The notes below the pieces were generated by a model. The model was not told the origin of the DNA, did not search any database, and saw only the letters and a list, made by a program, of their open reading frames with translations. From Tateyamaria omphalii (GTDB taxonomy: Bacteria; Pseudomonadota; Alphaproteobacteria; Rhodobacterales; Rhodobacteraceae), in the NCBI RefSeq assembly GCF_019802125.1, contig NZ_JAHVHT010000001.1:1612001-1676000 (forward strand): a stretch of DNA of 64,000 bases, in the 5' to 3' direction. A program made the translations under genes and the position numbers. Shown piece by piece: positions 29,164 to 31,142 of the stretch. How positions within the stretch are numbered: position 1 is the stretch's first letter; each line of letters starts with the position of its first letter.

Positions 29164-30579
29164 TCACAAACTCCGCACCCCTGGCCGCCTGTAGGCATTC
29201 GCGGGCTCAATCATCAACTCGTGCAGCGCCCAAACGAGCGCATCCACCCGGTCGGGCGATCCCTCACCTACATATCCGGCCCGCGTCATCCGCGTCATCT
29301 GATCCTCAAGCGGGCCAAGGTTCAACGCATGGGTCACCCGGTCCTGCTCATAAAGCGCGGCAATGGGCTCCGCCCGCGCCACCTTGCCTTTCGAGGCATG
29401 GACCGTCTTCAGCGACACCAGCGGATCGACCTGCCGGATCACCTCGGTCACCAGCTGCCCGCCCTGGTTCACCTCAGCGACCAACCGGTCCGCCTTGTAC
29501 GTGTCCATGGCATCAATCGCCGCCTTGGCCCACCCGCTCGGGCCGACACCCTGCACCGTGCAATCGGCGATCACATGAGCACGCCAATCCTGTGGCGGGC
29601 CATCCATCGTCACCCCCGCGACGATGATGCCGCAGGCGTCAGAGGAGCGACCGGCACTGACAGCAGGGTCCACCCCCACCACCACGCGGTCCAATTTCGG
29701 TTTCCGTTTGCGGCGCACGGCATCCAGCATCGCCGTGGTCCAGAACGCACCCTCTGCATCGCTCAGCAGAATGCCTTCCAACTCCTGCCGCCCCAACCGC
29801 GTCCCGGCATAGCGGCGCCGCACCTCGGCCAGAAACGATCCCGCCAGGTTGGCAGCGTTCGCCTCGGTCGGCGCGTGGGTCATCACGGTCGATCCCTGCG
29901 CCAGCAAATCCTTCAAAACATCCACGTTGCGCGGCGTCGTCGTCACGCAGCAGCGCGGATCATCGCCCAGCCGCAACGCGAATTGCAACATGTCCCAGGT
30001 CTCCTGCCCCTTCTTCCACTTGGCAAGCTCATCGACCCAGGCACAATCGAACTGCGGCCCCCGCAGCCCCTCCGGGTCATGCGCGGTGTGGATGGTCGCC
30101 ACAGCCCCGTTCGGCCACTCCAGCATCTTGCGGCCAACGTGAAACTTCGGACGACGATCCGAGGGCGTACACGCCATCAGACCACTGTCGCCAAACACCA
30201 TCACCTCACGCACCTGATCTATCGTCTCTCCGACCAGGGCCACGCGCCGGGCCTTGCCCGTGTCAAAGGGCATCGCGCCTTCCACCATCGATCTTACCCA
30301 CTCGGCCCCGGCCCGGGTCTTGCCGGCCCCGCGCCCACCCATGATGACCCAGGTCCGCCAATCACTCTCGGGCGGCAACTGATGCTCCATGGCCCAGAAC
30401 TCGAACAGAAAAGGGAGGGCGCCCAAGGCGCCCTCTCCCAACTCATTCAGAAACCGTTCCTGCGCCTCCACAGGCGCGGATGCGACCAAGCGCGCACCGT
30501 ACCTCAGCTTCGGCAAGGTCAAGGTCAAAGGCATATCCGTTTTGGGCAATGCCGCTGCGGGCTTCTCTGAACTTGTCAA
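29164..30579 (-). CDS. GTA terminase large subunit, g2
   Basis: A 471-residue packaging motor. The ATPase domain has Walker A GGRGAGKT (81-88) and Walker B FDCAWVDE (D183, E184); the C-terminal RNase H-like nuclease begins near VVVGVDPAVSAG. It drives headful packaging of host DNA. The frame opens at 30579, overlapping g1 by 137 bases; a later ATG (30534) is possible, so the exact start is uncertain. GC here is above 70 percent in sampled lines. Confidence 0.94.
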   Translation of the reverse strand: MTSSEKPAAALPKTDMPLTLTLPKLRYGARLVASAPVEAQERFLNELGEGALGALPFLFEFWAMEHQLPPESDWRTWVIMGGRGAGKTRAGAEWVRSMVEGAMPFDTGKARRVALVGETIDQVREVMVFGDSGLMACTPSDRRPKFHVGRKMLEWPNGAVATIHTAHDPEGLRGPQFDCAWVDELAKWKKGQETWDMLQFALRLGDDPRCCVTTTPRNVDVLKDLLAQGSTVMTHAPTEANAANLAGSFLAEVRRRYAGTRLGRQELEGILLSDAEGAFWTTAMLDAVRRKRKPKLDRVVVGVDPAVSAGRSSDACGIIVAGVTMDGPPQDWRAHVIADCTVQGVGPSGWAKAAIDAMDTYKADRLVAEVNQGGQLVTEVIRQVDPLVSLKTVHASKGKVARAEPIAALYEQDRVTHALNLGPLEDQMTRMTRAGYVGEGSPDRVDALVWALHELMIEPANAYRRPGVRSL

Positions 30580-30787
30580 GTTTCTGCTCCGCTCCTTGAA
30601 GGGCCACCACCAGCTTCGTCATGGACGTCAGCTGGCCGTTGACCTCGGTTTCCTTCAATTCCTCCCCGGCACCAGCCTTTTCTTTGAAGGCTTGGATGGT
30701 CTGCCGCAATTCTGCGAGCGATGCCTGCATCGAAGAGACAAGCTCCTCGCTGCGGGCCTCTTCAGCCTCCGGGGTAATCAATGTCAT
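30443..30787 (-). CDS. GTA terminase small subunit, g1
   Basis: A 114-residue helical, acidic protein starting MTLITPEAEEARSEELVSS. It is the first gene of the cluster, and its R. capsulatus counterpart has been shown to be the small terminase. ATG 30787 was chosen over an upstream extension because GAGAGGT precedes it and the extension has no family likeness. The C-terminal third overlaps the start of g2 in another frame. A strong promoter lies about 100 bases upstream. Confidence 0.87.
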   Translation of the reverse strand: MTLITPEAEEARSEELVSSMQASLAELRQTIQAFKEKAGAGEELKETEVNGQLTSMTKLVVALQGAEQKLDKFREARSGIAQNGYAFDLDLAEAEVRCALGRIRACGGAGTVSE

Positions 30788-30887
30788 ATGGTATGACCTC
30801 TCATGCGTTGGGATTGTCTCCGCACGAGAGAAACGAAAAAGCGACCACCGGGTCACCCCAGGGCCGCTTCCCCACTTCTTCTAGCTT

Positions 30888-30908
30888 GTCACAAGTTATA
30901 CGTGTGAC
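30888..30908 (-). promoter_or_regulatory. Inverted repeat over the GTA promoter -10
   Basis: GTCACA (30888-30893) and TGTGAC (30903-30908) form a perfect inverted repeat with a 9-base centre that contains the -10 hexamer. A protein bound here would block or guide RNA polymerase, so it is a candidate operator of the GTA cluster. Confidence 0.55.
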
Positions 30909-30923
30909 CGTTCGCAAAGTCAA
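30895..30923 (-). promoter_or_regulatory. Candidate sigma-70 promoter of the GTA cluster
   Basis: On the minus strand: -35 TTGACT (30918-30923), 17-base spacer, -10 TATAAC (30895-30900). Each hexamer differs from consensus by one base. Transcription would start near 30888, about 100 bases before g1. Confidence 0.7.
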
Positions 30924-30988
30924 GCGAAATCGAATTGAGCTACGCCTGCTAACCGTACGGTACCATTAATAAAATCTTACTCGAGCGG

Positions 30989-31004
30989 TTAAGATGTGGT
31001 TAAC
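30989..31004. promoter_or_regulatory. CtrA-type box upstream of the GTA promoter
   Basis: TTAAGATGTGGTTAAC fits the full CtrA recognition pattern TTAA-N7-TTAAC. It lies about 70 bases upstream of the -35. CtrA is needed for GTA expression in R. capsulatus, though there it is thought to act largely through GafA. Confidence 0.5.
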
Positions 31005-31044
31005 GCGACGGGTAAGCCATTGAGATCGAAAAACAACCCTTGCG

Positions 31045-31060
31045 TGTCCCCGCGGGGACA
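31045..31060. repeat. 16-bp palindrome TGTCCCCGCGGGGACA
   Basis: An exact copy of the core palindrome found at 8189-8204 and 8720-8735, here in the intergenic DNA between mltG and the GTA promoter. Confidence 0.75.
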
Positions 31061-31142
31061 AATGGGCGGAGAACACCTCCGCCTCACGATTGGCCCTCCC
31101 CACGACCGTAGGGTGCGCATTCACTGCGCACCGCTACCTGCG

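Follow-up and report, generated by a model that had tools for sequence, protein, structure and literature searches.

A candidate termination gate at the head of a Rhodobacteraceae gene transfer agent cluster

Layout and promoter of the cluster

The 64,000-nt stretch of Tateyamaria omphalii DNA analyzed here (hereafter "the window") carries, in order along its minus strand, a gene that we take from its translation to be fabF-like, mltG (minus strand, PF02618), a 355-bp gap, and g1 and TerL of a gene transfer agent (GTA) cluster. g1 has no Pfam match above cut-off and, judging from its position and from the published Rhodobacter capsulatus case, is probably the small terminase gene. The TerL frame is open from a TTG at 30579, with the first in-frame ATG at 30534; its closest named relative among the matches listed is from a Tateyamaria sp. 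(92% identity), and every one of the 299 records retrieved with TerL from a phage collection was below 60% identity. No tRNA genes were found. The promoter, the inverted repeat over its -10 and the CtrA-type box of the original prediction for this DNA all sit in the gap between mltG and g1. Comparisons were based on 81 loci, i.e., the TerL upstream regions of the window and of the best 80 of 113 relatives; one record among them, titled Nocardioides marinus (L082), holds a Rhodobacteraceae-like GTA cluster and is probably mislabelled or contaminated. The genes and the promoter elements are as follows:

30923-30918, minus strand: -35 element TTGACT, read directly
30909..30915, minus strand: GCGNNCG block in the -35/-10 spacer
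30908-30903 and 30893-30888, minus strand: inverted repeat GTCACA-N9-TGTGAC, perfect 6-bp arms with 9 bp between
30900-30895, minus strand: -10 element TATAAC, after a 17-bp spacer
30443..30787, minus strand: g1, 114 aa, ATG at 30787-30785
29164..30579, minus strand: TerL (g2, large terminase), Pfam PF03237/PF17289

As predicted, TTGACT-17-TATAAC is read on the minus strand about 100 bases before g1, the ATG of which lies 108-113 bases downstream of the -10. Sequences within two mismatches of TTGACA-17-TATAAT occur at two places in the 64 kb (0.79 expected), and the promoter stands out from chance somewhat; a stock promoter scan listed none at the site because it demands T as the sixth -10 base, which here is C. 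When scored with a 55-column weight matrix trained on the same loci, the promoter core exceeded 20 bits in 55/81 loci, as part of a ~55-bp block with the consensus CTTGACTTTGCGAACGGTCNNACGTATARSTTGTGACATGCTAGAAGAAGTGGGC. It also lies at the distance from g1 at which GafA of R. capsulatus binds (76-125 bp before g1, a span containing the -10 and the start, according to passages of PMC6363796 and PMC9638019), and the assignment as GTA promoter is well supported on both counts.

Among the 49 distinct cores, which were selected for their match to the matrix, the -35 is TTGACT in 42, TTGACA in six and TTGACC in one, i.e., near-consensus in the cores examined rather than degenerate and activator-needing. 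GCGNNCG occupies its fixed place in 45/55 cores and is a candidate binding element for the C-terminal part of GafA (GafA-C); its inverted partner CGNNCGC follows downstream in none of the 55. TTGTG comes directly after the -10 in 42/55 cores. Further downstream, GCTRGAAG is kept at about +3 to +10 with a weak, by-eye likeness to a -10; as a -10-like pause element it is a weak candidate, the TRGAAG in the initial transcript having no final T. Also set aside was a search of the host genome for TATARSTTGTGNC promoters, which was uninformative (eight places with at most one mismatch vs. 57 for the reversed control). The genome encodes a single DUF6456 protein (PF20057, E 1.8e-63), a family that the control genome of Caulobacter vibrioides also matches. 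This GafA combines DUF6456 with an HTH, and its gene neighbors what is, by our reading of the sequence, presumably a lipoyl-synthase-like gene, as published for gafA.

Terminator-like hairpins and what they may do

GTAs are lethal to the producing cell and are switched on in only a small fraction of cells. Given a -35 that stays close to consensus in the examined cores, a gate acting after initiation was to be expected, and two candidates for it were found, here listed with the neighboring leader elements:

30819..30887, minus strand: leader RNA hairpin 1 (model R1), from the predicted +1, containing t1
30841..30867, minus strand: terminator t1 (predicted), inner G+C stem, with a U-tract at 30840-30836
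30798..30830, minus strand: leader hairpin 2, CTCTCGTGCG / CGCATGAGAG, over the g1 Shine-Dalgarno
30802-30797, minus strand: g1 Shine-Dalgarno GAGAGG, five of its six bases covered by hairpin 2
30413..30438, minus strand: terminator t2 (predicted), d = 46.2, with a U-rich tail from 30412

Both leader hairpins and t2 were absent from the original prediction. In the stretch that separates promoter and g1, a stock scan listed a terminator-like hairpin (30859-30838), and RNA that begins two bases upstream of the predicted +1 has a folding energy of -49.9 kcal/mol over 110 nt (z = -4.94). Its G+C stem followed by a U-tract is that of an intrinsic terminator, and the inner stem scores d = 45.3 on the d'Aubenton-Carafa scale, which was made for E. 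coli, against a background of 1504 window segments, own leader included, of which 41 are above zero and four reach 45.3. A similar leader hairpin appears in relatives, with d > 0 in 63 of 68 located leaders (the window included) and d below zero in L028, L029, L079, L081 and L083, the last three of which, all Cognatishimia-like, keep the long hairpin. The other 13 loci have a terminator behind the promoter region in six cases (L043, L050, L053, L062, L070 and L082; no TTGAC was found in L050 and L053) and none in seven (L066, L071, L076, L077, L080, L089 and L092, the hairpins of L066 and L071 being too far upstream to count). Thus t1 is not universal.

The pairing of hairpin 1 is conserved and covaries. 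RNAalifold gave a weak consensus (-2.06 kcal/mol) on the raw alignment of 66 of the 68 located leaders (two near-identical rows left out), which we put down to misaligned loops. On 36 sequences chosen from these 66, a choice that favors well-aligned rows, 90.5% of the cells of its 27 pairs are paired, against 44-59% when the structure is slid, a control in which the unslid version is favored because the structure is the window's own fold. Double-change cells number 44, vs. 12.1 ± 3.8 in shuffles and at most 15 in slid versions, and nine pairs are changed on both sides, vs. 5.1 ± 1.2 shuffled and 10 when slid by -1; columns 18/55 are unpaired in 32/36 sequences. Covariation extends to the outer stem (columns 12/61 changed on both sides in 7/36 sequences), which begins within a few nucleotides of the predicted +1 and runs beyond the U-tract, an extension that a plain terminator does not need. 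The U-tract itself is kept as U opposite conserved G (columns 16/57, G-U in 29 and G-C in six; columns 17/56, G-U in 34/36).

Covariance model R1 has one strong match in the host genome (E 5.4e-21; next 1.8), and across the order it matches 238/390 genomes from 95/139 genera, once per genome except for two matches each in G070, G122, G332 and G349, and always, among the matches listed, within the window's own family. As 152/390 genomes have no R1 match and 353/390 have a TerL match, some members of the order have lost the leader or carry a diverged form of it. Of 385 genomes of the class, nine match at E ≤ 0.01: strongly the host genome and one relative, weakly (0.0014) a second relative, and at about chance level (2.5e-4 to 0.009) six genomes of other families. 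In each of the 90 genomes that appear among both the 150 R1 places and the 150 TerL places listed (90/90), R1 precedes TerL by 239-480 bp and has the same orientation. The leader hairpin, usually with one match per genome, also provides a compact marker of the operon's control region. No Rfam family scored above its gathering score in the 64-kb window, and the single hit of an Rfam search of 30700-31100, at another place in the gap, was at chance level (E 0.95).

The second hairpin, t2, follows the g1 stop after four bases and is written inside the TerL frame (codons EGALGALPFLF). Across the 66 loci of a codon-shuffle test (15 of the 81, lacking the strict motif, left out), d was above zero in 49, vs. 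11.7 expected under synonymous-codon shuffles, and below zero, or t2 was absent, in 17, Rhodobacter-like ones included. Outside Tateyamaria, where a wider motif gave 66 loci, 57 of them distinct, at least seven of eight stem pairs form in 35/57 distinct loci vs. 4.4 expected, with paired changes from GGGAGAGC/GCTCTCCC to GGGAGGGC/GCCCTCCC and GGGAGCGC/GCGCTCCC alongside amino-acid changes. These comparisons suggest that t2 is kept by selection at synonymous sites. In 67/68 loci its distance from the g1 stop is no more than 30 nt. When 70 thinned loci were scanned blind over 2.8 kb, a range that misses the longer leaders, two clear peaks emerged, namely the leader and t2, plus one weak further bin (12/70; median bin 0). 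Over 21 whole clusters (20 relatives and the window), t2 was present at d > 15 in 12 and the other mapped 30-nt bins recurred in at most two; 24 hits were unmapped and are probably leaders, which are outside the protein anchors. Like t1, t2 is not universal. Other terminator-like hairpins of the window, e.g., 24690-24673 (d = 23.0), were discarded as candidates, not being recurrent in relatives. The same lack of recurrence applies to a strong one near the TerL/portal junction (29082-29061, d = 32.9).

Both hairpins would, from their anatomy and conservation, terminate transcription, and we think it probable on balance that a termination gate controls the GTA operon and that GafA acts as antiterminator. 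RNA polymerase would start at about 30887 (the predicted +1) and, in cells without GafA, stop at t1 about 50 nt downstream; t2, immediately after the g1 stop codon, would catch whatever leaks past t1. In the few GafA-making cells, the C-terminal DUF6456 domain would be loaded at the promoter, the candidate loading elements being the spacer's GCGNNCG and the TTGTG that follows the -10, and GafA would carry the polymerase past t1 and t2 into the 14-kb cluster. Such a scheme would not require a repressor, and CtrA would act mainly via gafA. The original prediction had held that a promoter this close to consensus would fire in all cells unless repressed; downstream terminators fit this puzzle better than a repressor does, and two conserved ones would give a concrete answer to how a near-consensus GTA promoter stays silent. 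If true, anti-termination would extend from Caulobacter to the main GTA-bearing order and GafA would gain a new predicted activity. Among the papers listed in searches of an open literature library, none dealt with a terminator in the leader or between g1 and TerL, or with anti-termination, for GTAs of Rhodobacterales.

Alternatively, t1 and t2 may mainly insulate the cluster, blocking stray transcription from mltG, with GafA only recruiting polymerase and some polymerases leaking through. A terminator of its own (d > 0) is indeed found in only 10/50 mltG-to-promoter gaps (the window among them, d = 8.7), and passages of PMC9638019 report that GafA acts through RNA polymerase omega. However, t1 lies downstream of the GTA promoter, so that the operon's own transcripts must pass it; an upstream position would serve better, and t2 behind g1 would be unneeded for insulation alone. 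We consider insulation possible but unlikely as the main role.

The leader might also do more than terminate. Hairpins 1 and 2 have bases 30830-30822 in common, and it is conceivable, although this is a rather speculative and doubtful reading, that they form a GTA-specific two-state RNA switch through which polymerase modified by GafA would control read-through as well as translation of the small terminase, with t2 as a second check before TerL. Counted on 31 sequences chosen from 68, hairpin 2 has 90.5% of cells able to pair (27-62% slid) and 12 double-change cells (2.8 ± 1.4 expected). Its pair types are no higher than in shuffles (175/500 as high), so support for hairpin 2 is weaker than for hairpin 1.

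Last among the readings of the leader, it could be mainly an RNA element, either a 5' stem-loop protecting a long mRNA or a small leader RNA made in all cells. The outer stem, covarying and starting next to the predicted +1, would suit such a role, as would the three loci (L079, L081 and L083) that keep the long hairpin with a terminator score below zero; yet most sequences retain U in the U-tract across from conserved G's, and t2 would be left unexplained. We regard this as improbable, and retain the termination gate with GafA antitermination as the preferred reading.

The inverted repeat and the upstream elements

The perfect GTCACA-N9-TGTGAC around the -10 is present as described in the original prediction, which had proposed it as a repressor site. 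Allowing two mismatches, this named repeat occurs once in the 64 kb, in its perfect form, vs. 2.45 expected. Perfect inverted repeats with 6-bp arms and a short spacer are common when any sequence is allowed, by our estimate roughly 200 per 64 kb. Alone, the repeat does not stand out from chance. It is perfect in 14/55 cores (Tateyamaria-like and some Roseobacter); among the Tateyamaria-like relatives L013-L025 and L058 it is perfect in 9/14. The arms differ in their conservation: of the 49 distinct cores, 38 retain the right arm with at most one changed base and 17 the left arm, the latter confined to Tateyamaria and some Roseobacter. Arm complementarity over these cores is 0.595 vs. 0.552 for shuffled arms (3/2000 shuffles as high), a slight excess for which kinship may account.

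The right arm also recurs elsewhere. The gafA promoters of all 19 same-genus genomes (own included) have a CtrA site TTAAC-N6-G(T/C)AA followed by TAGGTTGTG, and the left arm is absent from the printed gafA promoter stretches of these genomes. The reverse complement of an R. capsulatus lysis-gene primer contains GTTAAC and GGTTGTG (from a table of PMC6854486); the letters of this paper's R. capsulatus primers had no match in viral_contigs or in the 390 genomes of the order. We therefore take the right arm (TTGTGAC, together with the -10) to belong to a promoter signature of GafA rather than to be one half of an operator. This signature may overlap with the GafA motif figure S7 of PMC9638019. 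With arms neither both conserved nor covarying, a repressor palindrome is not supported.

Three elements lie further upstream:

31003-30988, minus strand: CtrA-type box TTAAC-N6-TTAAC (= TTAA-N7-TTAAC), read directly
30966..30980, minus strand: A/T-rich element, at a fixed place 57 bp before the -35, conserved over 47 thinned sequences
30952..30961, minus strand: ACCGTACGGT palindrome, at a fixed distance upstream of the -35

The TTAA-N7-TTAAC box is present upstream of the promoter as predicted, and it stands out from chance: TTAAC-N6-TTAAC with at most one mismatch has five matches at three places in the 64 kb vs. 0.33 expected. Boxes were counted in 50 gaps, five of the 55 cores being dropped for want of a usable mltG stop. 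The exact box occurs in 9/50. Eight of these are Tateyamaria (the window and seven relatives), with 80-81 bp between box and TTGAC; in the ninth, L063, the distance is 57 bp. Since not one exact box arose in mononucleotide shuffles, the Tateyamaria boxes are not due to chance. Boxes with up to two mismatches are present in 30/50 gaps, where shuffles give about 2.8, and 17 of these boxes are 55-58 bp away from TTGAC on its upstream side. These looser TTAA-TTAA boxes are mostly nearer the promoter, and the ones at 55-58 bp coincide with the A/T-rich element, a candidate site for IHF, for the N-terminal domain of GafA or, in degenerate form, for CtrA. Together with the palindrome, this element forms an upstream module (30952-30980; RTTARGATTTTGTTAA + ACCGTACGGT) that has fixed spacing in many genera.

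The exact box belongs to a 78-bp stretch (30986-31063) that also includes the GTCCCCGCGGGGAC palindrome and CTCAATGGCTT, and that recurs once more in the genome with 78% identity (G000:C1:379554-379631, locus L002), between genes which we read as presumably patatin-like and as an MFS-like transporter. A dispersed repeat of about 30 bp (31092-31062) has seven further matches in the genome, and another inverted repeat, GGTGCGCA/TGCGCACC, lies just behind mltG at 31112-31132.

Passages of PMC6363796 report that R. capsulatus CtrA did not bind the 633-bp RcGTA promoter by EMSA, and passages of a D. shibae survey (PMC6473078) name CtrA sites for gafA and other GTA-associated genes and a LexA site for the GTA gene cluster. 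Direct CtrA input, the other half of the original prediction, finds a mixed answer, the looser boxes of 30/50 gaps speaking for it and the Tateyamaria-only exact box and the EMSA result against it. The alignment of the gap across relatives divides similarly, with promoter core and right arm kept, and left arm and exact box local. Because looser TTAA-TTAA elements are widespread, the CtrA half appears likelier than the repressor half. As a whole, a repressor dimer on the -10 repeat combined with direct CtrA activation from the TTAA box is very improbable: both sequences are present and recur in close relatives (the repeat perfect in nine of 14, the exact box in seven besides the window, looser boxes more widely), but the symmetry of the repeat is not conserved, its left arm is local, its right arm is shared with gafA promoters, the exact box is local too, and CtrA did not bind the RcGTA promoter in the EMSA above.

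Comparison with known systems

Two phage systems resemble parts of this layout. The phage lambda Q / pR'-tR' system has a strong promoter, a regulator element in the -35/-10 spacer and an early terminator, and the locus described here is alike in its strong promoter, spacer element and terminator soon after the start; it differs in having no clear -10-like pause element. RNA antitermination by HK022 put involves two adjacent stem-loops at the transcript start. The two adjacent leader stem-loops are likened to these by layout alone, and unlike them the first hairpin here carries a U-tract.

At the R. capsulatus RcGTA promoter, GafA-C is bound 76-125 bp before g1, which is the distance of the core here (passages of PMC6363796), and CtrA acts through gafA (passages of PMC6363796 and PMC9638019). 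The R. capsulatus work explains GafA by recruitment through RNA polymerase omega (passages of PMC9638019), and a word search of the main texts gave zero occurrences of "terminat" in PMC6363796 and of "terminator" in PMC9638019.

The nearest parallel is the Caulobacter crescentus CcGTA with its regulators GafY and GafZ, for which we draw on passages of PMC11150451. GafZ, which has no sequence or structural similarity to known antiterminators, has the DUF6456 domain family in common with GafA and lets polymerase read through terminators. It binds an inverted repeat, GCGCCCG-CTGGCGC, between -35 and -10 (PMC11150451), a spacer element of like form, since GCGNNCG here has the form of its left half GCGCCCG. 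In both clusters a terminator, here a predicted one, lies behind the first gene. In CcGTA it consists of three 150-bp GC-rich repeats behind gtaT (PMC11150451), whereas here the leader would carry the first terminator, and the second would be a short hairpin that follows g1 within the TerL frame. The CcGTA -35 is degenerate (AATCAT) and the one here near-consensus; in Caulobacter, a change of the -35 to near-consensus rendered the promoter active irrespective of GafYZ, at a strength ~sixfold lower (PMC11150451). The authors of PMC11150451 themselves suggest that GafA may have an unrecognised anti-termination activity, which is the activity that we propose for it at t1 and t2.
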